Below, piece after piece: positions 17,377 through 36,596 of a stretch of 40,392 nt of DNA (position 1 is its first letter; each line of letters begins with the position of its first letter). This stretch comes from Vicinamibacterales bacterium (GTDB lineage Bacteria; Acidobacteriota; Vicinamibacteria; Vicinamibacterales; 2-12-FULL-66-21). The DNA is taken from the NCBI GenBank assembly GCA_035699745.1, contig DASSPH010000091.1:1-40392 (forward strand). The letters are read 5' to 3'. A model generated the notes under the pieces. It was not told the origin of the DNA. It saw only the letters and a list, made by a program, of their open reading frames with translations, and did not search any database. Position numbers and translations under genes: made by a program.

Positions 17377-17827
17377 GTTTGCAACAGAAACTTGGCGCAA
17401 TCCGGATAGAGCCCTGTACCGGGTGCGCCCACCGAGTGCGCCCACCGTCAGGCGCACCAACCGCATGCGATGTGTTGCGCACCGGATGTACAGCGCGGGA
17501 TTATTAGGGTGCTGAGCGTCTTTCTTGTCGGTATTCGGACGGGGTGTGGTTACTGCGAACCCGGCCACGGACGTGGCCGTGACCCTCGGGGCAAAATCAG
17601 CAGTCCGCAGGGTCGCTCATCACGTTGCCGCAAGCGTCACAGCGACGTCGCAGCGCGAGCAGGGGGGCTTCCACGGAGGCGACGGCGCTACGAGTCGCGG
17701 CGCCGTGGTGGACGAGGCCTCGTGGGGAACGAGCATCTGGCGCGATACGAGAACAACGGCGCTCTCCTGGCAGTAACTGCGAAACTCCGGGGTCGCAAAG
17801 GATCCCGTGACGTCGACACCGTGGAGT
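17377..17827. other. Left island end, no confident gene
   Basis: This 450-bp stretch holds the TGCGCCCACC repeats and further TGCGCACC variants. On the minus strand a 72-codon frame (17838 to 17620) starts 11 bp inside the end of the araC-type gene and has Cys pairs (MECELHG, PPCSRCD). A different frame nearby ends CDACGNVMSDPADC. The two could be pieces of a frameshifted zinc-ribbon gene, but the evidence is thin. Confidence 0.35.
17424..17446. repeat. Left-end pair of TGCGCCCACC repeats
   Basis: Two direct copies (17424-17433 and 17437-17446, 13-bp period) lie about 50-70 bp inside the left core. The second is part of a 13-bp stretch, GAGTGCGCCCACC, found identically at 36212-36224 near the right end. 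They are candidate arm-type sites for the recombinase or AlpA-type protein. Confidence 0.55.
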
Positions 17828-18628: not shown

Positions 18629-18679
18629 GACGACGTCCTGTGTGTTCGTGTTCCGGCGCGAAAAACGGGCGTATGGGAA

Positions 18680-18701
18680 TTGCGCGACTCGCGACGCGCA
18701 A
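18680..18701. promoter_or_regulatory. Inverted repeat in the AraC-RHS divergent region
   Basis: TTGCGCG (18680-18686) and CGCGCAA (18695-18701) flank an 8-base spacer, about 50 bp upstream of the araC-type start and 200 bp upstream of the exported-protein start. It may be an operator. I see no strong promoter boxes in the rest of 18629-18899. Confidence 0.35.
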
Positions 18702-18899
18702 CGAGAATGCCGCACGTCCAGTTTACAGCGTACGCCGCTTTCGGCAGACGACGAAACGTTCCGATTGTGCGGCTGAGGTGAGCGTGCCAGTCCTGCGGAC
18801 GACCGACCGCGTGATGGCACGGGGTCGCACATACCCGCGACGCTCCCCTGCCGGCGCCGAACCGCACGGTTCCGCGTTCTTCCGAGAAGGTCCGACATC

Positions 18900-21800: not shown

Positions 21801-22826
21801 GCGCCGGTCGCAGGCACCTACAGCGTGTACGTGAACCCGATGTCCACCAACATCGGACAACTCACCGTCACCCTCTTCGCCGTCGCGGCGGATCTGACGG
21901 GAACGATCCTCGACGAGACGGCGATCGCCGACAGCCTGAGCAAGGGCCAGAACGCCCGGTACACGTATAGCGGCACCGCGGGGACGAGGATCAGCCTGAA
22001 CGTGCCGGCGACGTCGATCTCGTCCTGCTCGACTCTCGCGATCCTGAATCCGGATTCCAGCGTGCTCTCGTCCGGCCTCATTTGTCCGACCGGGTTCCGC
22101 GAGCCGGTGACCTTGCCCACCACGGGGACCTACACCGTCGTCCTGGATCCGAGCGGCCCGGCGGAAGGCACCTTCACGCTGGTGCTCTACGTCGTGTCTG
22201 CGGATCTGTCCGGCACGATTACACCCGGCACGCCGCTCCCGCTGACCATCGAGGATCCCGGGCAGAATGCCCGTTATACGTTCAGCGGCACGACCGGTCA
22301 GCGTGTCGCGCTGGAGATCGCCAATAGCGCGCTCGGCTGCTCCGCCGTGGCGATTCGGAACCCCGACGAGACCGTCGTCTGGAACACGACGGTGTGTCCC
22401 ACCGGTTTCAGCGACGTGAAGATCCTGGGCGTCAACGGCACGTTCAGCGTGACGTTGAATCCGAACGGTGCGGCGGAGGGCTCGGCAACGCTGAAGTTGA
22501 CCAACGTTCCCGCTGACGACGTGCAGTCCACCACGATTGGCGCGCCTGGCGGCGCCACGGTCAACACCACGGGCCCCGGCCAGAATGCCGCGGTGACGTT
22601 CAGCGCGACGGCCGGGCAGGTGGTCGACATCATCGGCTCGAACAGCAACCTCGGCTGCACGACGTTCAAGCTGCTGCGTCCGGACGGATCGCAGCAGGCC
22701 TCTACCTTCTCGTGCGGCGGCTTCACGTTCAACGATCAGACGCTCGCCACGGCCGGCACCTACAGGGTCAGCATCGATCCGAGCGGCACCACTGTCGGCC
22801 ACGTCACGATCGTGGTGCAGTTCTGA
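18900..22826 (+). CDS. Exported multidomain repeat protein with TIG, carboxypeptidase-regulatory, YD and PPC-like repeats
   Basis: The product is 1308 residues with a signal near residues 12-34 (ARIALTLVLVLGCAAHAFAQ). After an unassigned N-terminal domain come, in order: a TIG/IPT domain (about 208-288), two carboxypeptidase-regulatory folds (about 290-455), two isolated YD repeats (about 460-500: YVYDEVGRLVAVV, YAYDAVGNVTSI), two more TIG domains (about 505-670), and six tandem ~105-residue units to the C-terminus. Each of units 2-6 has a GQNAxxTF core, unit 1 being a divergent copy, and each has GTYTVxLxP. These resemble bacterial pre-peptidase C-terminal domains. GAGAAGG precedes the ATG. 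It is followed at once by the RHS gene, whose first candidate ATG overlaps its TGA. It probably acts as a surface partner or scaffold for the RHS protein. Confidence 0.82.
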   Translation: MTRRSSPSVTTMMQARIALTLVLVLGCAAHAFAQTTYHLHSEASSTAGHAQLKTADPHAPTVAIQSIELKNLSPTAVVIKQFDTQAGVPGTAGSLASGSIVTFTIWMKKTANPGAMYPQARLRLNNDSGPLICTATGTSPLTTTLTKFIFSCEASAVQLTATDRFWVSAGIDMTGGPGNKSVKAEVHLEGTLNGNYDSYVAIPAITPPQPVLTDLSPVVGVAATSVTLTGEFFGATGTVTFNGVPGTPSNWNATSITVPVPSTATTGLVRVATTGGTSNGLTFTVVTSGALSGTVTRATTGVPIAGATVDVLQSGVVVASRTTAANGTYSVAALSSGSYDVRVAAAGLLTQVYTNVAVGAGATVRNAALDAAGTVTGRITEPDGLTGIAGASVTATGSGGAAMSTTADGTGAYTIGGLAPGTYSVEASAPAFASQAQSGVAVADAGNATVNLSLPTAAPPTVRYVYDEVGRLVAVVDTTGETARYAYDAVGNVTSISRHASSTLAVLEISPNRGPVSTVVTITGSGFSPTLSQNAVTFAGTPATVTSATATSIVTTVPSGAVTGPIAVTVGSGSDTSATNFEVTASSGAPTITSFTPAIGTTSTLVTVNGTNFAASTASNLVDFNIRRGGLNSATPAQVIASVPQLGTSGRIRVTTAFGAAISAADFYVAPPAHSPANVDLTARVSFGQPTVVTNTNTTKLQLLIYDAQAGQPVSLQFTNITDGTRSFAWRRADGTYFINGQSGGTFVDATIMPAAGTYTVELLPGTTGNRTVIVHDATEFTGTIAPGGDAVLVPIGAPGQNARLTFTGVAERQVSATLSSVTIPQSDVSVLNPDGTTLGPALVLSPSEDFMDARTLPVNGSYTVLLNPRQTHIGNASVTLHDATDTTGPIAPDGNAVVVATSIPGQNGRRTFTAAAGERVILKISGSTYATGFTCGVGVSIRDPQDVVLAADNCVAQGEQWIDAVLAPVAGTYSVYVNPMSTNIGQLTVTLFAVAADLTGTILDETAIADSLSKGQNARYTYSGTAGTRISLNVPATSISSCSTLAILNPDSSVLSSGLICPTGFREPVTLPTTGTYTVVLDPSGPAEGTFTLVLYVVSADLSGTITPGTPLPLTIEDPGQNARYTFSGTTGQRVALEIANSALGCSAVAIRNPDETVVWNTTVCPTGFSDVKILGVNGTFSVTLNPNGAAEGSATLKLTNVPADDVQSTTIGAPGGATVNTTGPGQNAAVTFSATAGQVVDIIGSNSNLGCTTFKLLRPDGSQQASTFSCGGFTFNDQTLATAGTYRVSIDPSGTTVGHVTIVVQF

Positions 22827-22852
22827 TGTCGGTCAGTCAGCGGAGAACGAGC

Positions 22853-25800
22853 ATGAACACGCGAGTCGATCTGCATCGGCGCCTCCTCATCTGGCTCTGT
22901 GCGACCTGTGCACTGCTCCTGAATCCCGGCGCCGGCCTCCGCAGCGCATCCAGCCAGCAGCCGCCGCCGGCGGTCATTGTGGCGGCGGGGCAAACTGCGA
23001 CGCTCCTGCCCGATGGACGGTGGCTCGTCGTGGGTGGATGGCAGCGGGACGGCTCGCCGATTCCCCCGGCTTTGGTGGACGCCGAGCACAACCTGCGCAC
23101 CGCCGTGCCCGGCAGTCTTCTGCAGCCGCGTGCCGGGCACACGGGTACGGTGCTCGCCGACGGCTCTGTCGTCATCGTCGGCGGGATCAGCCGGAACGGC
23201 CAGGTCATCTCGTTGATCGAACGCTTCGATCCAGCCACCGGCTGGTTCGCTCCGATGGCGGTGTCCCCTGATCCGGCCCTGCACCGGGCGTGGCACAGCG
23301 CGACTCTGTTGACCGACGGTCGCGTGCTGATCACGGGTGGCACGTCGCCGGCCGGCGACGCGCTGAGCGACGCACTGATTTGGGATCCCTCGGGTACGCC
23401 GGATGCGGCGGCCGGCAGCGCGCCGCAGGCCATCGCGCTGCTCGCCCCGCGCGGCCGGCATCACGCGGAGTTGCTGCCCGACGGCCGCGTACGGCTATCC
23501 GGAGGCACTGCCGCATCGGGCGGAGATCGCCGGAGCGACGAGATCATCGATCCGGACACGCGCATCTCGCTGCCTGCAGGTCCACTCGACACCCGGGCCG
23601 GTCTCCACCTGTCCGCATCGGATCCGCACGCCGGCGCGAGCGGCGTTGCCGCGGATGTGCGCGTCAGCCTGCGCTTCTCGACCGCCGTGCAGGTGCGATC
23701 CGTGAACGACGGAACCGTCCGTCTCCAGGACGAGACCGGCGGGATCGTGGCGATCGAACGCGTTGCTGCGGAGGCGGGGATGCTCCTGTTCCTCCGGCCG
23801 TTCGCGCCGCTCGACCGCGGCCGCACCTACACGCTGACGCTGGATGGCCTGACGGCACCCGGCGCGCGCCGGCTGGCGCCGACCGTACTCACGTTCACGA
23901 TCGCGGGCGAGCGCGCCGACAGCGGCGGCACCGTGGACGACGAGCTGTGGACGCCGGACCCGGGCGCGATCCATGGCTGGAGAACAGGCCGGGAACCCTC
24001 GCCGTGGCAGCGCCTGCCACCGCTGAGAGCCGCCGCGGGTGTGACCGCCGTCTCGGGGCAGCTGCTTCGCCTCAATGGACAACCGCTCCCCGGTGCCACG
24101 GTGAGAGTGGGCGAGGCGAGAGGGATATCGGACCGAACGGGGCGGTTCCTGGTCGAGTCCGTCGCAGCCGGACGGCAGGAGCTCGTCATCGACGCCCGCA
24201 CCGCGAGCACGCAGGGACGATCGTATGGCGTCTTCCGTGTCGGCATCGAGGTGAAAGAGGGAGACACGCACGTCCTTCCCTACACGAGCTGGATGCCGCG
24301 CATCGACAAGCAGAACGCCGTCACGATCGCATCGCCGACGACGGCGGATGTCGTCCTGCGGACGCCGAGCATTCCAGGGCTCGAGGTGACGCTGCCGGCC
24401 GGTACCGTGATCAAAGACATCGATCACAAGGCCGCGCGCGAAGTCAGCATCACGCCGATTCCGGTCGACCGGCCGCCGTTCCCGCTGCCCCTCGGCGTGG
24501 ACGTGCCGATCTACTTCACCATCCAGCCCGGCGGCGCGTATCTCGAGTCCGTCAGCTCCGGCTGGCCCGCGGGCGCGCGCATCGTCTATCCGAACTACCG
24601 CTCCCGGCGGCCCGGCACTGACGTCGACTTCTGGCACTACGATCCGGAACATCGCGGATGGTTCGTGTATGGCCTCGGGACCGTCACTCCCGACGCGAAG
24701 CGTATCGAGCCAGGACCCGGCGTCTCAATCTACGAGTTCACCGGGGCCATGGTCGGCGATCCGAACTTCGGGCCCGCCGAAGGTCCGCCGCCCTGCAACG
24801 AGTGCGAGGATGGCGATCCCGTGGATCTCGCCACCGGCCTGTTCGTCTACAGCAAGACCGACCTGGCGCTGCCCGACGTGCTCCCGGTCCAGTTGACCCG
24901 GACCTACCGGCCGCGCGACTTTCGGTCGCGGCCGTTCGGCATGGGATCCACACACCCCTACGAGATGTTCATCGTGGGCGACACCAATCCGTGGACCTAC
25001 GTACAGATCGTCCTGCCGGATGGCGCCAGGATTCATTTCCCGCGCATCTCGGCAGGCACCGGCTTTTCGAACGCCATCTACGAGCACACCGCGACACCGA
25101 GCCGCTTCTATAAGTCGCGCGTCTCATGGAACGGATCGAAGGTGCAATGGGATCTCCGTTTCACCGACGGCACGGTTTACGAGTTCCCCGAAGCGGAGTT
25201 CGCGGCGACCCCGGCCGAGGCGGCGATCGTCGGCATCCGAGACCGATTCGGCAATCAGCTGACGTTCACGCGTGACAGCAGCTCGCGCCTGACTCGGATC
25301 ACGTCGCCGAACGGCCGCTGGATCGAGTTCACCTACGACCCGTCGAGCCGCATCAGCCAGGCCCGTGACAACGTGAACAGAACAGTCGGCTACGAGTACG
25401 ACGCCAGCGGGCGGTTGTGGAAGGTGACGGACGCGGAATCGGGCGTCACTGAATATACCTATGACAGCTCGCACCGGATGAAGACGATCAAAGATCCGCG
25501 GGGAATCGTCTATCTTACGAACGAGTACGACCTGAATAGCCGCGTGATCCGGCAGACGCAGGCCGATGGCTCCGCGTACCAGTTCGCGTACACCACCAAT
25601 GCGTCGGGGGTCGTCACCCAGACCGACGTGACCGATCCGCGCGGGATCCTGCGTCGCGTGACCTTCAACTCGAGCGGTTACTGGCTGGCCGACACGCGTG
25701 CGGTCGGGCGCCCCGAGCAGCAGGCGACCGTAGTGGAGCGGCAGGCCGGTACCAACCTGATCGAGAAGGAGACGGACGGGCTGCTGCGGCGCACGGACTA

Positions 25801-28027
25801 CACCTACGACGACAAGGGCAATCTCACGAGCATCAAGCGGCTCGCACATACGGCCACGCCGATCGAGACGACAGCGACATACGAACCGGATTTCAACCAG
25901 CTCGCCACGTTCACGGATCCGCTCGATCACACGACCACCTACGATTACACGGTCAACGGAACGCTCGAGCGCGTCACCGATCATCTCGGCCACTCGGTGA
26001 CATTCGGTAGCAACGCCGCCGGCCAGATCACGTCCGCCACCGACCCGGCCGGGACGATCACGTTCCTGTACGACAAGGGCGATCTTAGCGGCTTCATCGA
26101 TGGTGCGGGACACACCACCCGGATTCTGACGGACAGCGCCGGGCGTACGCTGACCCGTACGGATCCACTGGGCAACGTGACGCGCTACGACTACACCCTG
26201 CTGAACCAGGTGCGACAGATTGTCGACCCTCAGAACGGCGGCACAACGCTCACCTACGATGGCAATGGAAACCTTCGTATGGTCACGGATGCGCGAAGCA
26301 AGGTGACCGAATACACCTACGACGCGATGGACCGCGTCGAAACGCGCAAGGATCCGCTTCTCAAGATGGAGCGTTTCGTCTACGACCGCTCGGGCAATCT
26401 GTTTCAGCACATCGATCGGCGGGGTCTCGCCAGCACCTACCGCTACGATGGGCTGAACCGTATGACCAGCGCCGCATACGCCGACGGCGCGACGACAGCG
26501 TACACCTATGACGGCGGCAATCGTCTACGGCAAGTCGTGGATTCCGTCAGCGGGACGACGACCCTTGATTACGACGATTTGGACAGGCTGACATCGGAAA
26601 CGACGTCTCGCGGTGTGGTCACGTACGGATACGACGACGCCGGCCGCCGCACGTCCATGACGGTTGCCGGCCAGACGGCAATCAGTTACGGGTACGACGA
26701 TTCGAACCGATTGACAAGCATCACGCAGGGAACCAGCGTCGTCGGCTTCGAGTACGACGACGCGAACCGACGGACCGCTGTCACGCTGCCTAACGGCGTA
26801 CGCGTCGAATACGGGTATGCGGGTACTTCCCAGATTGCCGGCCTGACTTACAAACTCGGCACGACCGTCCTCGGGACAGTGACGTACGGGTACGATGCGG
26901 CGGGCCGCAGGATTGAAATGGGCGGCACGTGGGCGCGGACGACGTTACCGCCGCCGCTCACGTCCGCTGTCTACGATGACGCGAACCGGCTGACTCAGTG
27001 GAACGGAACGACCCTGACCTACGATGATGCCGGAAACGTCCTGAGTGAAGGGAGCCGGACCTACAGCTGGGATGCCCGCAATCGGCTGTCCGCGCTGGGA
27101 GGGCTGCAACCGGCAAGTTTCCAGTACGACGCATTCGGACGCCGGATCGGAAAGTCGACCGGCGCGGGGACCACCGAGTACGTGTATGACGGTCCCCAAG
27201 CGGTGCAGGAGCTCTCCGAGGCCACCCCGAGCGCGAACCTGCTGTACGGACCCGGCATCGACGAGCTGTTGCGGCGCACGAGCGGAGCGACCGCGCGATG
27301 GCTCGTCGCCGACGGCTTGGGATCTGCGCTGGCGCTGACGGATCCTGAAGGGGCGGTTCAGACGCGCTATACCTATGACGCCTTCGGCGCGACGAGCGGA
27401 AGCGGCGAGGCCAGCGGTAACGCATCGCAGTTCACGGGCCGCGAGAACGACGGCACTGGGTTGTACTACTACCGTGCACGGTACTACAGTCCTCGGCTGC
27501 AGCGGTTCCTGAGTGAGGATGCGCTTGGACTGGCGTCGGGAGATCCAAACCTGTACGCCTATGTCAGCAACGCGCCGACAAACTGGACCGATCCATTAGG
27601 CCTCGGCCCGAGGTACCCCAATTCCGGTACCCTGCCAGGCCATCCAAACGTGCCATACAGGGTGGACATGAATCAACAGCCACACCCGAATATGCACGTC
27701 AAGTGGCCGGACGGCTCGGAAACCGTGGTGAATCACAAGGGTGGCTGGGATCCGACGCACGGCGGGCGGCCTTGTGCAAAACCGCCGAAGAAATACCGTA
27801 ACGCGCTTCGGAAGGTCGTCAAACAGTTCGTGAAGAAGGCGGGACGCGCCGTTCCCGTGTTGGGCGCAGTGCTGCTGCTGTCCGACGTGGCCGAAGCGGC
27901 CGAAGTGATCCGGAATCCGAATTCTGGCGTCGGAGACTTGGTGAATATTGTGGTTCCATACAAGGATGTCGGCGACCTATTGCGCGAACTCTGGGCGCCT
28001 GACCTATCTGGTAGAAAGGATCCCTGA
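22853..28027 (+). CDS. RHS/YD-repeat protein with variable C-terminal tip (polymorphic toxin-like)
   Basis: I chose ATG 22853 (GGAG seven bases upstream, signal MNTRVDLHRRLLIWLCATC); an ATG at 22826 overlaps the previous stop and is possible. The product is 1724 residues. Order: kelch-like repeats (about 30-230), a bacterial Ig-like domain (about 240-360), a carboxypeptidase-regulatory fold (about 395-465), an RHS N-terminal DUF6531-like segment (GDPVDLATGLFVY, about 648), then more than 20 YD repeats (about 800-1490) that form the RHS shell. The RHS core ends with GLYYYRARYYSPRLQRFLSE and DPLGLG near 1584. The last ~140 residues are unlike the rest, with HPNMHVKWPDGSETVVNHKG and a hydrophobic segment, VPVLGAVLLLSDVAEAA. 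This tip is probably a toxin, type unrecognised. Confidence 0.9.
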   Translation: MNTRVDLHRRLLIWLCATCALLLNPGAGLRSASSQQPPPAVIVAAGQTATLLPDGRWLVVGGWQRDGSPIPPALVDAEHNLRTAVPGSLLQPRAGHTGTVLADGSVVIVGGISRNGQVISLIERFDPATGWFAPMAVSPDPALHRAWHSATLLTDGRVLITGGTSPAGDALSDALIWDPSGTPDAAAGSAPQAIALLAPRGRHHAELLPDGRVRLSGGTAASGGDRRSDEIIDPDTRISLPAGPLDTRAGLHLSASDPHAGASGVAADVRVSLRFSTAVQVRSVNDGTVRLQDETGGIVAIERVAAEAGMLLFLRPFAPLDRGRTYTLTLDGLTAPGARRLAPTVLTFTIAGERADSGGTVDDELWTPDPGAIHGWRTGREPSPWQRLPPLRAAAGVTAVSGQLLRLNGQPLPGATVRVGEARGISDRTGRFLVESVAAGRQELVIDARTASTQGRSYGVFRVGIEVKEGDTHVLPYTSWMPRIDKQNAVTIASPTTADVVLRTPSIPGLEVTLPAGTVIKDIDHKAAREVSITPIPVDRPPFPLPLGVDVPIYFTIQPGGAYLESVSSGWPAGARIVYPNYRSRRPGTDVDFWHYDPEHRGWFVYGLGTVTPDAKRIEPGPGVSIYEFTGAMVGDPNFGPAEGPPPCNECEDGDPVDLATGLFVYSKTDLALPDVLPVQLTRTYRPRDFRSRPFGMGSTHPYEMFIVGDTNPWTYVQIVLPDGARIHFPRISAGTGFSNAIYEHTATPSRFYKSRVSWNGSKVQWDLRFTDGTVYEFPEAEFAATPAEAAIVGIRDRFGNQLTFTRDSSSRLTRITSPNGRWIEFTYDPSSRISQARDNVNRTVGYEYDASGRLWKVTDAESGVTEYTYDSSHRMKTIKDPRGIVYLTNEYDLNSRVIRQTQADGSAYQFAYTTNASGVVTQTDVTDPRGILRRVTFNSSGYWLADTRAVGRPEQQATVVERQAGTNLIEKETDGLLRRTDYTYDDKGNLTSIKRLAHTATPIETTATYEPDFNQLATFTDPLDHTTTYDYTVNGTLERVTDHLGHSVTFGSNAAGQITSATDPAGTITFLYDKGDLSGFIDGAGHTTRILTDSAGRTLTRTDPLGNVTRYDYTLLNQVRQIVDPQNGGTTLTYDGNGNLRMVTDARSKVTEYTYDAMDRVETRKDPLLKMERFVYDRSGNLFQHIDRRGLASTYRYDGLNRMTSAAYADGATTAYTYDGGNRLRQVVDSVSGTTTLDYDDLDRLTSETTSRGVVTYGYDDAGRRTSMTVAGQTAISYGYDDSNRLTSITQGTSVVGFEYDDANRRTAVTLPNGVRVEYGYAGTSQIAGLTYKLGTTVLGTVTYGYDAAGRRIEMGGTWARTTLPPPLTSAVYDDANRLTQWNGTTLTYDDAGNVLSEGSRTYSWDARNRLSALGGLQPASFQYDAFGRRIGKSTGAGTTEYVYDGPQAVQELSEATPSANLLYGPGIDELLRRTSGATARWLVADGLGSALALTDPEGAVQTRYTYDAFGATSGSGEASGNASQFTGRENDGTGLYYYRARYYSPRLQRFLSEDALGLASGDPNLYAYVSNAPTNWTDPLGLGPRYPNSGTLPGHPNVPYRVDMNQQPHPNMHVKWPDGSETVVNHKGGWDPTHGGRPCAKPPKKYRNALRKVVKQFVKKAGRAVPVLGAVLLLSDVAEAAEVIRNPNSGVGDLVNIVVPYKDVGDLLRELWAPDLSGRKDP

Positions 28028-28061
28028 CGGCAAGGGCGGCACTGAGCCACAATGTAGCGTT

Positions 28062-28436
28062 ATGGGCGAAGACACAGCATCTGAGCTGTACCAGTCGGGC
28101 CGGGACGCGATGGACCGAGGTGACTTCACGACCGCCGTCGGGCACCTGCAGCGCGCGCTGGCATTGCGGCCGCATTACAAAACACTGGAGCTTTTGGGCA
28201 CGGCGCTTCGGGAACTCCAGCGCCCCGAGGAGGCGCTCGTCTACCTTGCCGCGGCGGCGGGACTCGGCAATCGGCAGTTTCGGGCGAGATATCTGCTGGC
28301 GGAGGTTCTCGTGGGCCTCGGACTGACCGACGATGCCATCGTCAAACTGGAAGAGGCGATAGAACTCAACCCCAGCTATCGGACAGCGCGTGAGTTGCTC
28401 GAGCGAATACGCGCCACGCGTCCGGAACCGACGTGA
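28062..28436 (+). CDS. Small TPR protein, possible immunity or partner gene
   Basis: The 124-residue product consists of about three tetratricopeptide repeats: ELYQSGRDAMDRGDFTTAVG followed by RALALRP, KTLELLGTALRELQRPEEAL, and YLLAEVLVGLGLTDDAIVKL ending EEAIELNPSY. It has no signal, so it is cytoplasmic. ATG 28062 lies 34 bp after the RHS stop; a longer frame overlaps the RHS end but has no conserved sequence, and no strong ribosome site is visible. TPR proteins bind other proteins. Position directly behind a polymorphic-toxin tip fits an immunity or chaperone role, but that is inference. Confidence 0.72.
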   Translation: MGEDTASELYQSGRDAMDRGDFTTAVGHLQRALALRPHYKTLELLGTALRELQRPEEALVYLAAAAGLGNRQFRARYLLAEVLVGLGLTDDAIVKLEEAIELNPSYRTARELLERIRATRPEPT

Positions 28437-28523
28437 GCGGCGACACGTGAATGCGATTCGCTGCCGAGTCCTTACACGGCCGTCTCGCCGCGGTGTGCGT
28501 TGATCTCGCCGTCATCTGTCGAG

Positions 28524-29008
28524 ATGCCCTTTCGGCATGAGTGGTATCCCGAGGATGACCAAGTGTGTTTCAGCTGTTCCCTTGTGATCCGACCCGCCGA
28601 CCCAGCTGCCTGGCGCGAATTCAAGCGCCGATTGCCGACAGGACGCGATCTGTACGAAGTGCAGCTGCCTGCGGATCTGCCGTATCAGGGGACGATTGCA
28701 ATTCCCGTTGAATACGTGCCGTCTGATGGCGTGTTACAGGCGTTGCGAGGATGGATGGCGGCGAAGAACCAAACCGAGCTGCTCTACTTCCTGACCGAAG
28801 GAATCACGGGGAGCGAAGCGACTTCGTGGTTTTGCTGTCGAGTCTGACGTACGACGATCTGGCGGCGATAAACGCGGGACGAGAGAACGTGTTCGCCGGC
28901 GTCAATGGCGACTGGGCTGTCTTCATCGATCATGAAGGTACGCTGCACGTGGCGGGACCTTCAGACTTGTGGCTAGTGCTGACTGAAGCGAAAGGGGGCG
29001 GTGGCTAG
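28524..29008 (+). pseudogene. Frameshifted immunity-like gene
   Basis: The first frame (28524-28847) reads MPFRHEWYPEDDQVCFSCSL through ELLYFLTEGITG and then goes out of frame to a stop. A second frame continues the same protein with DFVVLLSSLTYDDLAAINAG and ends in SDLWLVLTEAKGGGG at 29008. The switch lies near 28806-28825, next to a GGGG run, and needs one base lost or two gained. Joined, the product would be about 160 residues, acidic and without a signal. I do not recognise the family. Location behind an RHS toxin suggests an immunity gene. A sequencing error is possible. Confidence 0.6.
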
Positions 29009-29054
29009 ACGATGATTTCGCCGTCAGTATCCAGGTTTAGAGCTTCGTTCGGCA

Positions 29055-29453
29055 ATGCACGCGGTTAAATTGGAGAATTTCGCCCGCGATCATCCGGGTC
29101 GAGCGTTTCCGTGGTTCCGGACGCTTGACGCGGGTGAGGCTCGGCTGGCCGCGAAACTTGGCACCGACGCCGACGGAGAGGGAGTCGTTCGCGTTATTTT
29201 CGATCGTTCCCGGTTACTCGCGAACGTCGACGCGGACGATGACACGTTCGAGCCGAAGTCTGTGTTCGACTCGCTGTCGATTCAGCCGACTTCAAAGGTC
29301 GTGGTCAACTGGTATCACTTCGATCAGATCGACGAGATGCACTTTCGGGACCTGAACGCCTTCTTCGCGGACATCTGGTATCCGGCGGCGGATGACATCG
29401 ATATCCTGGACGAGACGCCCTCATGGGTCGTTTCAATTAGGACACGAAGGTGA
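29055..29453 (+). CDS. Hypothetical acidic protein, immunity-like
   Basis: The 132-residue product begins MHAVKLENFARDHPGRAFPW and includes VVNWYHFDQIDEMHFRDLNA followed by FFADIWYPAADDIDILDE. It is acidic and rich in aromatic residues, with no signal or membrane segment. Size, charge and position (third gene after an RHS toxin tip) resemble small immunity proteins, which differ greatly between families. I do not recognise it. The start has no strong ribosome site. The previous gene ends 46 bp upstream. Confidence 0.6.
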   Translation: MHAVKLENFARDHPGRAFPWFRTLDAGEARLAAKLGTDADGEGVVRVIFDRSRLLANVDADDDTFEPKSVFDSLSIQPTSKVVVNWYHFDQIDEMHFRDLNAFFADIWYPAADDIDILDETPSWVVSIRTRR

Positions 29454-29504: not shown

Positions 29505-30521
29505 GTGCGGTTGACCGTCGCGATCCTCGGCGCGCTGCCTCTGGCAACGGCCATGGTCATTGGTGCGAACGGCCACGTGCGTCAGGAGTCCTCTCCTTCA
29601 CCGGGCGACCGGCTCTTCCACCGCGTGTGGACGCCGGTCGACGGCGCCGGTCCGCTCGCCAATGCCCAGAGCTGCGCCGCGTGTCACTCGAGTCCGCGCG
29701 CCGGCGGTGGGGGCCCCCAGAGCCTGGTCATCGTCTCGCCCGACGCGAGGGATCCGAGCGGCGGGCAACTCTTTCGCCAGTTTCTGTTTCGCCCCGGGAA
29801 GGCCGTCGTGCGGCAGCCTCTGCCCAACCGGGTTTTCCGTCGCCGGCCGCCGTCGCTGCTGGGCCTGGGCCTGCTCGAACGCGTCGACGCCGGATCGATT
29901 TCGGCGCTCGCGGATCCGGATGACCGCGACGGCGACGGCGTCTCCGGCCGCATCGCCGCAGATGGTGGACGGTTTGGCTGGAAGGCGCGGTTCGCGCGTA
30001 TTGAGACGGCGGTAGCGGCGGCGCTCGTGAACGAACTGGGTCTCACCAATCCCATGTTCAGGGAACGCGACACGCCGGCGCCCGAGGTCGCCGACAACGA
30101 TGTGCGGGCGCTCTCGGCGTTCGTTCGGACGCTCGCGCCGCCGTCTCCTTCCCGCGCCGGCTCAGAGGGACGAGCCGAATTCGCCGCGTTCGGGTGCGCC
30201 ACGTGCCACGTTCCGCGCCTCGCGGGGATTGCGGATGCCACCCACGCTCCTGCCGAGCCGTTCACGGATCTCCTCCTGCACGACATGGGACGCGAGGGCG
30301 CGGACCTGCATGAGGGCTCTGCTGCCGCCGCCGAATTCCGCACTCCCCCGCTCTGGGGCATCACGGCGATGGACGGTGCATACATGCACGACGGCGGCGC
30401 GCCAACCCTTGACGCCGCGATCCGCGCTCATGGCGGCGAAGGCTCCTCCGCCCGCCGGCGCTACGAGCAGGCGTCCGTCCCGCGCCGCGCGGCGCTCCTC
30501 CGCTTCCTGGCCTCGCTCTGA
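29505..30521 (+). CDS. Exported di-haem oxidoreductase (DHOR/DUF1111-type)
   Basis: The 338-residue product starts at GTG 29505 with a signal sequence (LTVAILGALPLATAMVIGAN). Two c-type haem sites are visible: CAACH at 57-61 and CATCH at 231-235. The segments between them are typical of di-haem thiol-oxidoreductase-like proteins: PSLLGLGLLERVDAGSISAL, a possible Ca-binding loop DPDDRDGDGVSGR at 138-150, FGWKARFARIE, NELGLTNPMF, then after the second haem FTDLLLHDMG, FRTPPLWGI and the C-terminal MHDGGAPTLDAAIRAHGGE. It is periplasmic and needs cytochrome c maturation. Family members often sit beside an imelysin-type protein; none is here. It lies between the RHS module and the conjugation remnants, so it is island cargo. 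Confidence 0.88.
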   Translation: MRLTVAILGALPLATAMVIGANGHVRQESSPSPGDRLFHRVWTPVDGAGPLANAQSCAACHSSPRAGGGGPQSLVIVSPDARDPSGGQLFRQFLFRPGKAVVRQPLPNRVFRRRPPSLLGLGLLERVDAGSISALADPDDRDGDGVSGRIAADGGRFGWKARFARIETAVAAALVNELGLTNPMFRERDTPAPEVADNDVRALSAFVRTLAPPSPSRAGSEGRAEFAAFGCATCHVPRLAGIADATHAPAEPFTDLLLHDMGREGADLHEGSAAAAEFRTPPLWGITAMDGAYMHDGGAPTLDAAIRAHGGEGSSARRRYEQASVPRRAALLRFLASL

Positions 30522-30647: not shown

Positions 30648-31422
30648 GTGCCGGCGCATCGTTTTCCGTGGCGCTTGGTGGAGGTTTCCACGCGCCTGGT
30701 CAAGACCGCCAGTCGACGCTTTTCGGCGTATCACCCCGAAATGTCCTTGCTCGTCTCGTGTATGTGGCGCCTGGAAACGCCGCGTGCCCCGCTGGTCAGC
30801 AGCGATGCCGATGACCGACGGTCGAACCGCGTCCTGCTGCGGGCGCTCATCGGCAAACGCATCCGGGCAATCGAACCTACGGGGCGACACGTCAGACCAC
30901 TGGTCCAACGGTGCGCTACCACGTCCAGAAGCTGCCGATCTTCATCACTCGCGACCCGCTACGAGTGCACTTCGTCTGTCTCGGCACCGACCTCACTGCA
31001 CGCGACATCTCAATCTTCGTCAGAGAACATGCCGCTCTGACGACACAGCTCACGGCTCACACCCTTGTCGTTGTCAGGCCGAGTCACATCTCCACGGATG
31101 CGCAGTGTCGTGCGGTCCATGCACAGGCCATCGGAAGCGTCGCGACTCCCGGGCGTGGTTCTTCGAGGCGCGGCGTCGCATCGACAGCGACGAGATCCAT
31201 GCGCTCTCGGTCGAGGACATCCAGCGATACCGGGAGTGCCGACGGCGCGCCGGATCAACCCTAGAGGGTGCGTACCTCAGCTGGGTCGACCACGGATATC
31301 CGAGCTTCACGAACGTCCGCGATCTCGTTGGATCCAACTCGCGGACCACGCATTCGGATCTCGTGGTTGTGCAGCTGCCGCACCGCTACGAACAATTCGG
31401 CGCCATGCTTGGGACCGCATGA
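30648..31422 (+). pseudogene. Frameshifted conserved gene of the island
   Basis: Protein-like sequence hops through three frames. Frame one has SAYHPEMSLLVSCMWRLETP and NRVLLRALIGKRIRAIEPT. Frame two, from about 30911, has VRYHVQKLPIFITRDPLRVH then FVCLGTDLTARDISIFVREH, and ALTTQLTAHTLVVVRPSHIS. Frame three, from about 31150, has AWFFEARRRIDSDEIHALSV and EDIQRYRECRRRAG to the end at 31422. Together they look like one protein of roughly 250 residues broken by at least two frameshifts. Its position before a coupling-protein gene suggests a replication or transfer gene, but I cannot name it. The interval 30522-30647 holds nothing I can support. Confidence 0.5.
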
Positions 31423-31798
31423 CCGTCGGGCGCGCCTGCTTCGTCACGGCTCTCCCACCAGCGTTGGCTGTCTGGCGCAGACAGGCGTCTTAGTCTAGGG
31501 GCCAGCGTTCCACCGTGACGCCGGCCCCACTGTCGGCCCGCACGCTGGCCCCGTCTCTCAGATTCATCGCGGCTTGCGTCTGCAGACGCAACGCCGAGAT
31601 GTCCCGTCGCCGCCCCCACTTGTGCCCGTACGCCGCTGCCCTCCGCGGTGGCGTCTTCTGCCACCGCTGGACCGCTCAGGGGTCCCGACTGATGGGGGGA
31701 GCGACCCCCCTTTCGGCTGTGCCTGAGGCAAAGCCCCTGCGCGGATCACCGCGTCGGGGGGTCGCTCCCCCATCAGTCGTCCCGTCAAGGAGAGAGCC
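31423..31798. other. Non-coding, repeat-rich stretch before the transfer-gene remnants
   Basis: No frame here looks coding. It contains an 18-bp perfect palindrome (31574-31591, TTGCGTCTGCAGACGCAA) and a long near-perfect inverted repeat (31686-31779). It ends with AAGGAGAGAGCC just before the ATG at 31799. The structure could serve as a transfer origin, a terminator or the ends of a small mobile repeat. Confidence 0.45.
31686..31779. repeat. Long inverted repeat, 24-25-bp arms
   Basis: The left arm 31686-31710 and right arm 31756-31779 are reverse complements except for one extra G in a G-run of the left arm. The loop is 45 bases. It ends about 20 bp before the start of the small gene at 31799. 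It is far stronger than any other intergenic hairpin in the island. Confidence 0.75.
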
Positions 31799-32074
31799 AT
31801 GCCGCTGATCAAGCCCCGCGCGCATCGCGTACGCACCCTTCGCCACATCTGCCGTCTCCAGGAACCCGACCGCGATGTGCTCATCGCGTACGCCGCATTC
31901 ATCGGCGAGTCGGCGGACTACGTGCTCAACCAGTTGATCGACACGACGCTCGCCAAGGACCGCGACTTCGTCGCCGGGCGAGCAAACCGCGAGTCCGCTC
32001 CGGGTACCGCACCTGGCGCCACTTCCGCCGACGCAGAAGCCTCGTCCACGACAAACAATCCGACACGGTCATGA
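31799..32074 (+). CDS. Small hypothetical protein, possible ribbon-helix-helix-type accessory
   Basis: The 91-residue product has a strong AAGGAGAGAG site before ATG 31799. The N-terminal ~60 residues read LIKPRAHRVRTLRHICRLQE followed by DVLIAYAAFIGESADYVLNQ and LIDTTLAKDRDFV: a basic strand-like start and then two helices, a layout seen in short ribbon-helix-helix proteins. The C-terminus (RESAPGTAPGATSADAEASS) looks disordered. The stop overlaps the next start in ATGA, coupling it to the coupling-protein pseudogene. Location just after a long inverted repeat would suit a mobilisation accessory or autoregulator. This is a suggestion; no family is certain. Confidence 0.65.
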   Translation: MPLIKPRAHRVRTLRHICRLQEPDRDVLIAYAAFIGESADYVLNQLIDTTLAKDRDFVAGRANRESAPGTAPGATSADAEASSTTNNPTRS

Positions 32075-32740
32075 ACGGCCTACGGGTCCTGCTCGAGCAT
32101 CGCCTCATGATCAGTCTCGCGCTCAGCCTTGTCACCGGTGTGGTCGGACCGTCGTTCCTCCAGCTCACCGTGGACAGTCCCCTCCTGGCCCTCGTTGCGC
32201 ATCAGCGCCCCACATTGTTCCCGCCCCATCGCACGGCTACGTTGCCGTCTGGTGCAGCACCTCGTTCCTGTTCTTCACCGTGGTCTCCACGATGATCTAC
32301 ATCCTGGCTGGTCGCGCCCACACGGCGCGGGCTCTGCAGCGGCTTCCGCCGTACCCTCCGGCTGCCTCGCGGCTGAATCTCTGTCTCTTCCTTGGCGAGC
32401 TGCACTACCTGACCAACGGCGAGCGCGCACCAATGCCGACGTGGTTGACCATTGCTGAGCGCGGTCTCTACACCGGAATCGCGATCGTAGGTGCGATTGG
32501 GTCCGGCAAGACGTCCGCCTGCATGTATCCCTACGTGCAGCAGCTCCTCGCCCGCGCCGGTGACGTCCTCAAGGCGCATCGGTGGTCTCATTCTGGAGGT
32601 CAAGGGAGACTTCTGTGAGCAGGTGCGAGGCATTCTTGTCGTCTGTGGACGCAGCAGACTACGTCGAGATCAGTCTGACTTCGCCCTTCCGCTACAACCC
32701 TCTTCACAACGGGATGGACGACTGTCGCCTGCTCACGAGG
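32071..32740 (+). pseudogene. VirD4/TraG-type coupling protein, decayed
   Basis: Type IV coupling proteins are membrane ATPases that feed DNA to a conjugation channel. The N-terminal part (ATG 32071) has a membrane segment (MISLALSLVTGVVGPSFL). After a frameshift near 32220 a second segment follows (SFLFFTVVSTMIYILAG), then RLPPYPPAASRLNLCLFLGE, LTIAERGLYTGIAIVGAIGS and the rest of the Walker A, GAIGSGKT. A further shift near 32580 leads to GGLILEVKGDFCEQVRGIL, and another near 32650 to DYVEISLTSPFRYNPLHNGM. Walker B and everything after are missing. At least three frameshifts plus a truncation make it non-functional. An intact gene would be about 500-700 residues. It shows that the island came from a conjugative element. 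Confidence 0.72.
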
Positions 32741-33313
32741 GTGCGAGTTGATCGGCAGCCGCGACCATGGCAAACACCCGCGGGATGTATGCTGCAATAC
32801 CGTTATGGGTGCGGAGTCGGCGCCACTCCATCCGATCCCGAGCCGCAACAAGCGTTACCACCACTCCGATGCAAAGCGACGGTTTTTGGGTGGACGAAGG
32901 ACTGACAAATGACTGGTCCAACGTTCCACCGTTCTCTCGCCGAGCGTTACGACGTCCGCCACGCTTGGATCCAACGAGACGACAAGCGCGGCAACGTTCA
33001 CGCTGAGGCAGTGCCGCTGCAATAGACACTCTCCGCCGGCGACAGCGGCAACCGCTCCGAGAGGTAATTGTGCGGAAGTGCTCGGGCGCGTCAAGGCTTC
33101 GTTCGCTGGCTGCTTCGGTGCGCTCACCGCTTCGCGGCCTTGACCCGCCCTGTGCGCTTCCTCTGTCTCGCCACTATCGGAGCGGTTGCCTTCTATCCGG
33201 TCACGCACCTGACAACGGCCGTTTCCGTTCCTGGCACGCGAGACAGGTCCGCCGCACCATTTTCCCGTACCGACACATTGGCCTGACCTTCGCACGCTGG
33301 CCGCGCGTAATCG
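32741..33313. other. Degenerate stretch, no gene supported
   Basis: Nothing here reads as an intact gene. A 38-codon frame from about 32910 (MTGPTFHRSLAERYDVRHAW) and a 72-codon frame ending at 33286 with one hydrophobic segment (RFLCLATIGAVAFYPVTHL) may be scraps of lost transfer genes. There are no clear ribosome sites or hairpins. Confidence 0.4.
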
Positions 33314-34005
33314 ATGCCTCTGAAGGTTTTCAGGTGCTGCACCTACTCAGCCGCCTTCGGACAGCGTACCGAACCCGAATGGAGTGCGCTGCAATTCGTC
33401 AGGGCGATCAAGGGCAAGCCGCTGAAGGAATACGTCGACGTGCCGCTCCCAAGGGTCGACATATCCGGCGCGATCAGTCGCCCGCAGCCCGGGCGCCGGA
33501 CTGATTTGGAGAGATGATCGCTGCGGGCGTGAGCTGGGTGTCCCGACGCAACTGTCGCCCTCGTGCCGATCCCCGATTCAGGTTGCTCCGTCGCCTCGAA
33601 GGCAGCACCAAAGACGCTGATTCTCGCGGCCGCCCTCCGAGACACGCTCATGCCCGGCCTGGCCGGCGTATTCGATCTCCTTCGATGGTGCGAGGCAATC
33701 CGCCGGCACATCTCATCGGAGGCACGCGGGATCCGCAGGAACTCTACAGTCTGTTCCGGCTCCGAGCTCGTGATCTGCCGCGATTGCCGCTCGTGTTGAT
33801 CGACGACGTGCTCCCGTCAGGCGGTCACCTCAGAGCGGCGGCAGCGTTCCTAGCGCACTGTGGCGCCCAGGTGCATATGGCGATCTGCGCAGGTCGCGCC
33901 GAGCTGACGCCAAGCCCGCTCGAGCGTCCCTTCAGCGTTCGCACGGACGTCTTGCCGGACTTCGTCGCGGATCCCGACTGGCTCCTGCCATTCACTTCCG
34001 GTTGA
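33314..34005 (+). pseudogene. Phosphoribosyltransferase-like gene, decayed
   Basis: The first part (33314-33517) reads WSALQFVRAIKGKPLKEYVD through PLPRVDISGAIS and then hits two stops (33515 and about 33530). The same frame resumes with TVALVPIPDSGCSVASKAAP and LILAAALRDTLMPGLAGVFD. A frameshift near 33700 leads to PPAHLIGGTRDPQELYSLF and the PRPP-binding motif LPLVLIDDVLPSGGHLRAAA. It ends at 34005 with DWLLPFTSG. This is the order of type I phosphoribosyltransferases related to ComFC. With two stops and a shift it should be non-functional. Its last 156 bp overlap the recombinase gene on the other strand. Its original role in the element is unknown. Confidence 0.6.
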
Positions 34006-35787
34006 GCCATCTTCGACCGGGCGCTGCGCCCAGACCTGCGCCGCGATCGCGTAAGGTTCACCTGCGCCCGGTAATCCGCTGGCCATTCGCTCCACCGCGG
34101 CACGGGCGGTTTCGTCATTGGCGCGCACGTACCGCATGAACGTTTGTGGCGAGTGGCCGAGAATCTTCGCTCCAGTTTTGGCGTCACCGCCGATGAGTGG
34201 GGCCAGAGCGGTCGCAAACGAGTGGCGAAAACAGTGCGGGGTGAAATAGATCGACGCACCTGTATAGGGGTCCTTCACACGCCGTGCTGCAACCGTGACT
34301 TGGTAATAGAACTCCTGATACCAGGGGACCAGATTTTCGTCGGGCACACGCGAGCGATCCGCCAGGCGATCGAACAAGTCGTACTCGACGAACGTCCGTA
34401 GCGCGGCGATGCCGAAGTCGTTCAGGGGAATTCGCCGACGACTCAGGACGCGTTCCATTCTCCCTGCGTGGCGGCGGTGCTTTTCTGTCGGCATGAGCAC
34501 CGCGCGTTCTTGCAACCGGACGTCTCCGGGTTCCAGCATGGCCAGCTCGCCAACCCTGGCCCCCGTGTGCGCCAACACGGACGCGCGAATGAACGCCTTC
34601 ATCATCCGGGTCCGGTCGGCGCGCCGCCGGTATGGCACCACGTCACGTCTCATCGCCGCCACAAGCCGTGCGACCTCGGACAGCGAGGGAGCGCGGGCCG
34701 TACCAAAGTCGTATGGGGACACCATACCGTCCAGGCCGGCGCGCTGTGACCCAATGTGAAGGGCTTGCCGGAATGATCCCACGCTGAAATACCCGAACTT
34801 GGTCACCTTTCCGCCGCCGTGGTAGCGGTCGGGATGAGCCAGATATTGCCGGCATGCGTCGACAGCGTCAGCGCTCAGAACAACGACCCGTCGCTCTCGC
34901 TGCTCGGTCGCGACTCTGATTTCCCCATGGCCATCGACGGTGACATATCGTTCGAACACACGCTTTGCGGGAATGTGAAGCACGCCTGCCCGCAGATCAA
35001 ATGCCCGCGCATCGCGAATCGACCATAGTTCCTGAATGGTGAGCCCGGCAAACCCCAGCACTGCCGCTCGGACGGACGCAAACGACGGATGTTTACGCGT
35101 GCCTACGAGTGTCGGGGTGCGCATCGCCTCGAGAAGTTGCAGCACCACCTGCAGGGGCTGCGCCTTCTCGACCTCTGGTGATTTCGGTGGCAGACGGTCC
35201 TTGAGTGCGAGGACCGGATTCGCCCAATCTGGGTAGAGCACGCCGAAGAGGTTCGACAAATGCAGCGCCCGCGTTCGCAGGTAAGAAGAGGCCCATCGCC
35301 GTTGCGGTAGAGCGTTCGGCTTCTTTCGAACGATCGTTTCCTGCTTCCATTCCTCGAGGGCGAGTTCCACGAGCTCGGTCGTGATCTTCGTCGTCTTGAA
35401 TGAAGATCCAAGCTTGCGCGTCAGCCAGCTGCCCCACAATCTGAGGCTGTGCTCGCGTCCGCGATAATCCGACACGCTGGCCCGGCGCGCCAAGTAGACG
35501 CGCACGTCCTCTTCGAAGACTCCTGACGCGGTCCGCGCAGCGTCTCGTCGGAGGTCATGCACGCGCGTCGCTCGTTCCCGCTGCAAGTAGTCGAGTGTTT
35601 CCTGAAGTGTGTCGCGTACTTCCTGCGGATACAGCCGGTCAAATTCTCCCGCCCCTCGTCGTCGTGCGCGGACGCGCCAGACCCAATTGCGGCACGCCGC
35701 AAGTTCTTCCTGGCTGCGCAAGGCCCTACGCGTATGAGGATGGACGCGAGAGATGCCGGCCGGCAACCGGACCGCACTAGGACGCAT
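33850..35787 (-). CDS. Tyrosine recombinase (integrase) with an extra degenerate catalytic-like domain
   Basis: The 645-residue product is much longer than the usual ~300-450. The active catalytic domain is in the second half: Arg411 in AHTGARVGEL, Lys436 in PTEKHRR, His518 and Arg521 in HCFRHSFAT, His545 in LGHSP and the nucleophile Tyr553 in FMRYVR. Residues 85-190 resemble a core-binding domain. Between them, about 205-368, lies a second domain of similar layout (VLGFAGLTIQELWSI, VVVLSADAVDACRQYL, VSPYDFGTARAPS) in which the catalytic Arg is Thr250 and the HxxR motif is absent. The tail after Tyr553 is long (~90 residues) and overlaps the phosphoribosyltransferase remnant. The AlpA-type gene ends 6 bp upstream. 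It is the likely integrase for the island. Confidence 0.9.
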   Translation of the reverse strand: MRPSAVRLPAGISRVHPHTRRALRSQEELAACRNWVWRVRARRRGAGEFDRLYPQEVRDTLQETLDYLQRERATRVHDLRRDAARTASGVFEEDVRVYLARRASVSDYRGREHSLRLWGSWLTRKLGSSFKTTKITTELVELALEEWKQETIVRKKPNALPQRRWASSYLRTRALHLSNLFGVLYPDWANPVLALKDRLPPKSPEVEKAQPLQVVLQLLEAMRTPTLVGTRKHPSFASVRAAVLGFAGLTIQELWSIRDARAFDLRAGVLHIPAKRVFERYVTVDGHGEIRVATEQRERRVVVLSADAVDACRQYLAHPDRYHGGGKVTKFGYFSVGSFRQALHIGSQRAGLDGMVSPYDFGTARAPSLSEVARLVAAMRRDVVPYRRRADRTRMMKAFIRASVLAHTGARVGELAMLEPGDVRLQERAVLMPTEKHRRHAGRMERVLSRRRIPLNDFGIAALRTFVEYDLFDRLADRSRVPDENLVPWYQEFYYQVTVAARRVKDPYTGASIYFTPHCFRHSFATALAPLIGGDAKTGAKILGHSPQTFMRYVRANDETARAAVERMASGLPGAGEPYAIAAQVWAQRPVEDGSTGSEWQEPVGIRDEVRQDVRANAEGTLERAWRQLGATCADRHMHLGATVR

Positions 35788-35793
35788 GCGTGC

Positions 35794-36030
35794 TCAACCT
35801 CGTGTGCGCAATAGGTAGCGCAGCACGTCGATGCCTGCGAACTGCACGCGGCGAGTCGTCGGCGACAGTGGTGGAATCGGGAAGCGGTTGCGCTGTCGAA
35901 GGCGGTAAATCGTCGCTCGGGACATGCTGATCCATCGCGGGAGGTCCTCGATATCGATGATGGCCGGCAGCTCGCGCGCAAGGCGCAACGCGTATTCCCG
36001 CTCGCCTTCGCTCAATGTTGGGTTGGACAT
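35794..36030 (-). CDS. AlpA-type helix-turn-helix protein (probable excisionase/regulator)
   Basis: The 78-residue product starts at ATG 36030 with GAGG upstream. The core is IIDIEDLPRWISMSRATIYR followed by LRQRNRFPIPPL and VQFAGIDVLRYL, a winged MerR-like helix-turn-helix as in AlpA and excisionase-type proteins. These bend DNA at att sites or switch on the integrase gene. It is 6 bp upstream of the recombinase gene, on the same strand, and about 325 bp from the right core, so the two form an integration module. Confidence 0.85.
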   Translation of the reverse strand: MSNPTLSEGEREYALRLARELPAIIDIEDLPRWISMSRATIYRLRQRNRFPIPPLSPTTRRVQFAGIDVLRYLLRTRG

Positions 36031-36354
36031 GGCCTTACCTCGGCTCACGCGTCCGCTCGACGCCCGGGACTGCACGATAGCGCGCGCGATGTGTGGCGTC
36101 TGTCGCCGGACGACAGTGTCTGAAGTGAAATGCCGTTGAGTGGTCCACCTGGCCACACCAACGCCGACCGTGCGCCGCAGGCTCGTCCTTGCCTCCGCCT
36201 GCGAGTTCCGGGAGTGCGCCCACCACTGCGCCCACCACCGTCGAAACAGAGCGATATTTACTGGCCTTTTGGGCGACTTCTGGCGACTCCGCACCGAGGT
36301 TTGGAAACCAAAAACTGCAATAGACACGGGCATGAACGCTGGAACTCTATAATT
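36031..36354. other. Right island end: recombinase-site region
   Basis: No gene is convincing in these 324 bp. They hold the TGCGCCCACC pair, a short inverted repeat (36300-36312, TTTGG and CCAAA) and a plus-strand TATAAT at 36348-36353 next to the core. The promoter of the AlpA-recombinase pair should be here. Confidence 0.5.
36212..36236. repeat. Right-end pair of TGCGCCCACC repeats
   Basis: Direct copies at 36215-36224 and 36227-36236 (12-bp period), in the same orientation as the left-end pair. The 13-bp GAGTGCGCCCACC at 36212-36224 is identical to 17434-17446. They lie about 120-140 bp inside the right core. Confidence 0.55.
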
Positions 36355-36596
36355 TCCTCGATCTTCTTGAAGTTGCCATTCTTCTGCCGGTACTCGAGGA
36401 TCCGCTGCGCGGCCTTCGCGCCGACGCCGGGCAGCGTCTCGAGCTGCGCCTGCGTCGCAGTGTTCAAGTTGACCGGAGATGCCGGTGTGGCTTTCGCGCC
36501 GGCCGCCGCCTTTGCCGGCGGCGCCGCTTTCTGTTCGGCGGCGGTCCCGGTCGCGGCGAACGCGGCGACCGCCAGAATCACGAGCAATGCACGCAT
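36258..36596 (-). pseudogene. comEA: ComEA-like helix-hairpin-helix gene, 5' fragment
   Basis: ATG 36596 has GGAGG five bases upstream. Residues 1-20 are a signal (MRALLVILAVAAFAATGTAA). An Ala/Pro/Lys linker follows, then the helix-hairpin-helix VNLNTATQAQLETLPGVGAK with AQRILEYRQKNGNFKKIEE. ComEA proteins bind incoming double-stranded DNA in the periplasm during uptake. At the core (36355-36364) the gene passes into island DNA. The frame then runs on with unrelated residues to a stop at 36258, giving a 112-residue product that lacks the second motif. The missing end is at 17264-17376. The intact protein would be 114 residues. The family may also include non-competence DNA-binding proteins. 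Confidence 0.85.
36355..36364. repeat. Right attachment core (10-bp direct repeat)
   Basis: TCCTCGATCT, identical to 17367-17376. The right side is the 5' part of the ComEA-like gene; the left side is island DNA. Confidence 0.8.

Follow-up and report, generated by a model that had tools for sequence, protein, structure and literature searches.

Evidence for a decayed conjugative element inserted in comEA of a Vicinamibacterales bacterium

The DNA analysed here, referred to as the window, is a stretch of 40,392 nucleotides that makes up the entire contig C91 (DASSPH010000091.1) of the Vicinamibacterales bacterium assembly GCA_035699745.1, a genome of 6.30 Mb in 110 contigs. It contains an island of 19.0 kb (approximately 17.37-36.37 kb) which interrupts comEA, a presumed DNA-uptake gene, and carries a tyrosine recombinase gene, a set of cargo genes and a broken cluster of transfer genes. 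The window was compared with 193 genomes of the class and with a phylum-wide sample of 396 genomes, both counts including its own genome; the genomes and loci compared are identified by G and L numbers. Domains were called on open reading frames (ORFs) with Pfam-based models.

The two parts of comEA lie at the two borders of the island. The 3' part (residues 74-99) is found at 17303-17380 and the 5' part (residues 1-80) at 36348-36596, both on the minus strand, with tblastn identities of 81% and 64%, respectively, to the comEA of G010. In G010 the gene is whole and lies beside the same pilin-type gene. It is also unsplit in 12 of 12 other fetched loci, and only one match to comEA is found in the window's own genome at E 1e-8. 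A tblastx overview was noisy and was used only for the comEA and pilin rows of L060, the comEA part being rechecked. The left island end (17359-17446, plus strand) consists of an attachment (att) core at 17367-17383 and a paired TGCGCCCACC repeat at 17424-17446, whilst the right end (36214-36371, plus strand) has its paired repeat at 36214-36237 and its core at 36355-36371. Pattern searches find the core, with a shared TCCTCGATCT, and the paired TGCGCCCACC repeat in the same direction at both ends. The left end matches a profile of such sites with 52.7 bits (E 1.4e-14), the lowest score of 30 sites (the others reach 54.5-92.6 bits), in a profile built from 22 of the 30 with the window included. 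Both G066 and G001 have stretches that are 70% identical to the right end, the one in G001 adjoining a cut comEA. A second left-side joint occurs in G090 (L119 17471-17648), where comEA is cut and its 3' part is joined straight to the att site. A tRNA gene was ruled out as the landing target, the window having no tRNA. An Rfam scan yielded nothing at gathering scores.

The island encodes an open tyrosine recombinase of 645 aa (33850-35787, minus strand; PF00589, 1.3e-11) and an open small protein of AlpA/excisionase type (35794-36030, minus strand). Tyrosine recombinases share the catalytic motif R, HxxR, H, Y, and the corresponding residues R411, H518, R521, H545 and Y553 are common to the window integrase and that of G066. 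The G066 integrase is 75% identical and is the sole close relative among the class genomes at E 1e-30, a search at E 1e-20 likewise giving no other. No relatives were found in viral contigs, and among plasmids there was one record, with 28.7% identity over 28% of the query. In the alignment, the last ~67 residues of the window integrase are unlike those of G066 and run antisense over a phosphoribosyltransferase (PRTase)-like ORF. The AlpA-type protein is 79.5% identical to its G066 counterpart, which itself has a sub-cut-off AlpA match; the window protein matches a PHROG excisionase with E 0.003. Judged from sequence, the integrase is flanked by att ends, as in an integrative and conjugative element (ICE), and the island has its own putative integration and excision genes, as in an integrative and mobilizable element (IME).

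Pairwise dN/dS values against G066 are low (0.10 for the integrase and 0.09 for the AlpA-type gene), with dS near saturation, and they describe a long history, not the present host. The initial annotation held that the mobility genes stay open, which is the case for both, although the integrase C-terminus has been replaced and the left att site is the weakest of the 30. Its further proposal that selection keeps cargo and mobility is too strong for the coding-rate ratios computed, as these are pairwise with near-saturated dS and the broken coupling gene described below falls within the range of intact ones.

The transfer cluster lies on the plus strand and includes the remnant of a coupling protein of the TraD/VirD4 type (32071-32719), in which residues 2-216 of 664 are spread over four segments in three frames. 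When aligned by tblastn with an intact relative, the segments cover residues 2-48, 45-164, 166-194 and 194-216, at 32080-32220, 32208-32564, 32569-32655 and 32651-32719, in frames 2, 1, 2 and 3, respectively. The Walker A motif GAIGSGKTS is preserved. Homology stops past residue ~216, and DNA matches to the region end at 32711 or before in seven loci, with none beyond 32723 in a wider list. Amongst the translated coupling genes of 14 relatives, some of them clipped where a contig ends, 13 are free of internal stops and that of G011 has a single in-frame stop close to the N-terminus; the window is alone among the 15 in having frame changes. No in-frame stop falls within any aligned segment. Coupling-region DNA was matched in 31 of 148 other genomes (E 0.001), many of the matches being short, and no second coupling gene turned up elsewhere in the window's own genome.

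Coding rates gave no clear signal of relaxed selection in the coupling gene, with dN/dS of the broken gene against its relatives (0.17-0.42) lying inside the range of intact pairs (0.14-0.44). Because these ranges overlap, the decay appears to be too recent for rates to tell broken from intact, and on a plain reading the decay is recent. At first and second codon positions that are otherwise invariant, private changes are most numerous in the window (15 of 174), followed by two relatives with 7 of 181; the window also forms the longest tip in the tree (0.63).

Upstream in the cluster is a broken gene without a name (30851-31419, plus strand), detected by tblastn with a 333-aa relative. Residues 146-225 (30851-31108) and 243-333 (31138-31419) lie in two frames, separated by one frame change, and residues 1-145 went undetected in this search. 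The family had no significant match in Pfam (eight members, best E 0.24), NCBIfam (two members), PHROGs (one member) or solved structures. Between this gene and the coupling gene is an intact small gene of 91 aa (31799-32074, plus strand), 51-70% identical to its relatives and joined to the coupling gene start by an ATGA overlap. Beyond the coupling remnant, inspection of the sequence at 32720-33510 revealed no recognisable gene. A probable PRTase-like pseudogene in two frames follows (33533-34005, plus strand): its ORF at 33505-34002 scores 21.1 bits against PF00156, below the cut-off of 26.3, and by eye its N-terminal half seems to be in a different frame. Neither a search of 148 other genomes at E 1e-5 nor one of solved structures brought up a relative. 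It is likely to be broken once.

The initial annotation described multiple frameshifts or stops in all three of these broken genes. This stands for the coupling protein, whereas there is a single frame change in the unnamed gene and probably one in the PRTase-like gene. That the transfer genes are truly broken is borne out by alignment to intact relatives, which displays the split frames; the intact small gene and the island borders had been overlooked. In all, there are five breaks in 1,649 bp, compared with none in 28,975 bp of other ORFs on the contig, a difference with a probability of ~5e-7 under even placement, although the figure is rough because the comparison ORFs were picked by hand for being open. 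The breaks could in principle have been created by assembly or sequencing errors in an assembly of 110 contigs. Their density, set against the unbroken hand-picked ORFs, and the absence of two thirds of the coupling gene and of the whole secretion channel, which base errors could not bring about, led us to reject this explanation as extremely improbable.

Relatives of the broken genes sit amid genes of the coupling protein, VirB4, VirB6, VirB8, VirB9/CagX, VirB10/TrbI and VirB11 types. On contig C9 of G066, the integrase and AlpA-type gene are followed by genes of the VirB11, coupling, VirB8, VirB6, VirB10, VirB9/CagX and VirB4 types, VirB11 being called from 61% identity to a G098 gene that matches T2SSE; the element measures ~41 kb including its two ends. 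In a tree of the coupling and small proteins, the window forms a clade with G066 C9, G102, G011 and G087 (support 1.0). As the relatives' genes sit in conjugation-type sets, and in G066 beside the integrase, the island is best read as a former conjugative element that has lost transfer. The G066 element also has an ABC-three-component (ABC-3C) set as cargo (L028 6124-9848), with matches to CTD7, MC3 and DUF3732.

No remnants of VirB4, VirB6, VirB8, VirB9, VirB10 or VirB11 were detected in the window's island, VirB11 being absent also when rechecked separately. With 496 ORFs of relatives as queries, the island matched only in its three transfer-cluster genes, apart from ORFs that overlap the AlpA gene and a weak antisense match of a 68-aa ORF (E 2.6e-4). 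Self-transfer looks impossible, since no remnant of a secretion channel was found. The island accordingly lacks what an ICE would have in this respect, its coupling protein being broken and truncated and its type IV secretion channel absent, and it differs from a cis-mobilizable element (CIME), in which integration and transfer genes are lost while the att sites persist, in that its integrase is open.

We conclude that the island is very probably a decayed conjugative element, inserted by a tyrosine recombinase, that splits comEA and no longer transfers itself. A conjugative element, from a family present in the bacterial order, would have integrated through its recombinase at a conserved codon stretch of comEA (FKKIEE/D), splitting the gene. 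It would afterwards have lost the secretion channel genes, the greater part of the coupling protein and a portion of the gene next to it, and ~13 kb of cargo would have been kept or acquired meanwhile; the decay may have run in this order. The recombinase would act on the island ends, and loss of comEA would be expected to block DNA uptake.

Several observations weigh against this interpretation. The flank of the G066 element end is not recognisably comEA. G066 is not the sister of the window in the tree, where a grouping apart from G066 has a support of 0.66. The transfer genes of G066 flank its integrase on the opposite side and share its direction, whereas in the window they are to the left of the integrase and inverted. 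Finally, no canonical relaxase was recognised among the scanned proteins of the window and its relatives, so that conjugation by this family is itself inferred.

As the gene order is inverted relative to G066, the remnant and the integrase may have joined separately. An old conjugative remnant and a distinct integrase/AlpA island bounded by ends of its own would then be neighbours by chance, a scenario to which the antisense run of the integrase tail into the PRTase-like ORF would also be suited, as would the disparity in identity to G066 (75% for the integrase but 52% for the coupling protein). We consider two such events unlikely, because both parts lie within one insertion with matched ends and the integrase family is rare, occurring in two of the 193 class genomes at E 1e-30, the window's own being one, both times near the coupling-gene clade.

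A conserved hairpin, a candidate origin of transfer (oriT) or operator, precedes the small gene and the coupling gene (31686-31779, plus strand; arms 31695-31710 and 31756-31771). Its arms pair perfectly over 16 bp and a further outer 8 bp pair past one bulge. No other perfect 16-bp repeat with a loop of 25-75 bases occurs in the 40 kb, and the hairpin folds as DNA at -44.4 kcal/mol (z -8.2). Inverted repeats whose perfect arms measure 13-25 bp precede the coupling gene in 13 relatives, and in 12 of these the small gene intervenes; a pattern fixing the inner seven pairs served to locate these hairpins. No hairpin was found in L021, L019, L022, L025 or L026 (a bare match to the pattern in L019 falls inside the unnamed gene), L017 has merely a repeat of G/C runs, and the L032 contig stops before the position. 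When the window was aligned with 12 of these 13 relatives, half of the pairs (11 of 22) proved variable, each of them having changed on both sides; 90.7% of cells are paired, against 41-50% when the arms are slid. Five covariation measures were computed. The covariation score was reached in none of 500 shuffles, while two other measures were reached by some, namely those that count pairs with changes on both sides (6 of 500) and pair types (32 of 500). A role as oriT is favoured over one as operator or transcription signal, at roughly an even chance of being right.

Contig C108 of the same genome contains a similar hairpin (z -2.4) beside a gene for a 478-aa tyrosine recombinase (PF00589, 2.5e-17). 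There, a hairpin and a second inverted repeat lie close together (L031 8278-8570); their counterparts in the window are 1.3 kb apart, at 31664-31774 and 33071-33185, the latter associated with an inverted repeat whose arms are at 33047-33063 and 33174-33190. The C108 locus is possibly a satellite element borrowing the transfer signal.

Since the candidate oriT hairpin survives, rescue of the island by a helper is possible. The element might therefore be an IME that has dropped its own transfer proteins and is moved by a helper conjugative element, converted and not dying. It retains the integrase, the AlpA-type gene, both ends, the small gene and the oriT-like hairpin; this hairpin is preserved amid broken genes, covaries in relatives and has its likeness next to a second recombinase on C108. 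Yet the role of the hairpin is putative and its survival could be explained by the recency of the decay alone, some shuffles attain two of the five covariation measures, no relaxase was recognised, and the weak left att site and replaced integrase tail speak against continued mobility. The genome, moreover, has no second coupling gene and only a single, sub-cut-off match to TrbI, and so no helper of this family. On balance such a conversion seems doubtful, and a decayed conjugative element is the reading we prefer. The description of a dying conjugative element in the initial annotation was right about the loss of transfer, but 'dying' is questionable while the integrase, AlpA-type gene, ends and hairpin remain.

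The att site extends beyond the window. The exact repeat pattern occurs at 31 places in 12 of the class genomes, the window's own included, two of them overlapping in G090, while a reversed control pattern matched nowhere in the 193. Of these places, 24 belong to a site of ~85 bp that starts with a comEA-like core. With a sequence model under stricter filters, matches were obtained in six genomes of the phylum sample, own included, all six within the order. There are 30 sites of at least 52 bits in 14 genomes of the order, own included. Five contigs bear at least two sites (5, 3, 3, 2 and 3), which point in one direction within each contig. A MacB/FtsX permease is encoded in 8 of 11 intervals, once as two ORF pieces. 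These intervals are the 10 between neighbouring sites plus one bounded by a site and a right end, and do not include the 41-kb element; other loci contain 2 permease ORFs in 223 kb, these controls not being random. Pfam agrees for 10 of 10 hand-picked permease ORFs, two of which lie past the last site of their contig, and seven of them were used to build the local permease model. Arrays in G122 (L107 1393-7821), G091 (L111 10801-17357), G051 (L135 8283-16500) and G066 (L105 3089-19626) hold a permease in most intervals.

comEA adjoins an element end in the window, in G001 (right end) and in G090 (left site). G115 has a poor trace of comEA near its site (E 6e-4), G081 has a whole comEA with the site ~0.8 kb away, and the other array contigs examined have none. 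Outside G066, no relatives of the window integrase were found in the array stretches. Genes next to the att site at L138 11640-12371 (G081) and L114 1313-2011 (G130) have, by eye, very similar first residues, although they lie on opposite sides of it. In G001, ~47 bp separate a copy of the paired repeat (L059 9094-9239) from a tRNA-Pro gene, which may be a further landing site.

Integron cassettes also form arrays that run in one direction, often with one main gene per interval. The present arrays resemble them in layout but differ in their weak conserved fold and in a recombinase that is not of the IntI type: the att site was ruled out as an integron attC with a consensus fold of only -4.7 kcal/mol, and the window recombinase scores far below the cut-offs of integron integrase models.

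A tentative reading, which we regard as possible but on the whole rather more likely wrong than right, is that of an order-wide recombination system around comEA, comprising arrays of permease cassettes, conjugative helpers and competence that is switched off. The att core would equal the comEA codon stretch, and short cassettes, mostly of one permease each, would stand in tandem in the same direction. G066-type elements would supply integrase and transfer, the window island would be a decayed autonomous member, and loss of competence would shield an array against removal by transformation. If the intervals excise as cassettes, they would offer a route for the spread of MacB/FtsX permease genes, and the conflict between elements and DNA uptake could be tested in another phylum.

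A family of integrases reportedly specialises on dusA (PMC4482086, PMC8409611), likewise a single conserved protein gene, although the target differs from that in the window. Loss of conjugation by an integrated element is already well known; less ordinary are its place, comEA, and its family, and the insertion together with the shared att site is more notable than the decay of the transfer genes. ICE decay to cis-mobilizable elements with tandem accretion is covered in a review that cites work on ICESt1 (PMC5704250). The decayed ICEs, IMEs and CIMEs treated in its relevant sections are alike in being site-specific, in having lost transfer genes and in sharing att sites in tandem; the window island differs in its open integrase, which a CIME lacks, in comEA as target and in an order-specific att site, with relatives' intervals that mostly hold a single permease. 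Many elements disrupt competence genes (PMC11472951); pneumococcal prophages are treated in PMC12637031. Elements are described in comK, comYC, comFA and comM, the first three being struck by prophages (Croucher et al. 2016, PMC4774983). These are similar in their site-specific insertion disrupting a transformation gene, whereas comEA is not named in the passages concerned; it would join the four as a landing site for elements. The ssrA islands of Dehalococcoides, as outlined in PMC3146451, are also in tandem, with conserved att regions of ~85 bp and many without integration genes, but involve a serine recombinase and a tmRNA target in place of a tyrosine recombinase and a protein gene. GInts are another type of island, with several integrases (PMC5385486). 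Among the top results in open-licence literature no comEA-targeting integrase was found, and a literature search on permease transfer gave nothing useful.

The cargo totals ~13 kb, and its long ORFs are intact in the ORF and domain scan, in agreement with the initial annotation. It comprises an open AraC-type regulator (17828-18955, minus strand; HTH_18, 4.8e-16) and, on the plus strand, an open 1308-aa protein with CarboxypepD_reg and TIG domains in the domain scan (18900-22826), an open 1771-aa RHS-repeat protein (22712-28027; RHS_repeat, 2.4e-71), a TPR protein followed by small ORFs (27948-29453, TPR matches being confined to the first) and an open di-haem oxidoreductase (29505-30521; DHOR, 3.4e-25). 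The small ORFs at 28500-28847, 28751-29008 and 29055-29453 have no domain match. The RHS-repeat gene and the small ORFs behind it (22712-29453) have a layout which we take to be typical of polymorphic toxin and immunity genes, and the small ORFs have a lower third-position GC.

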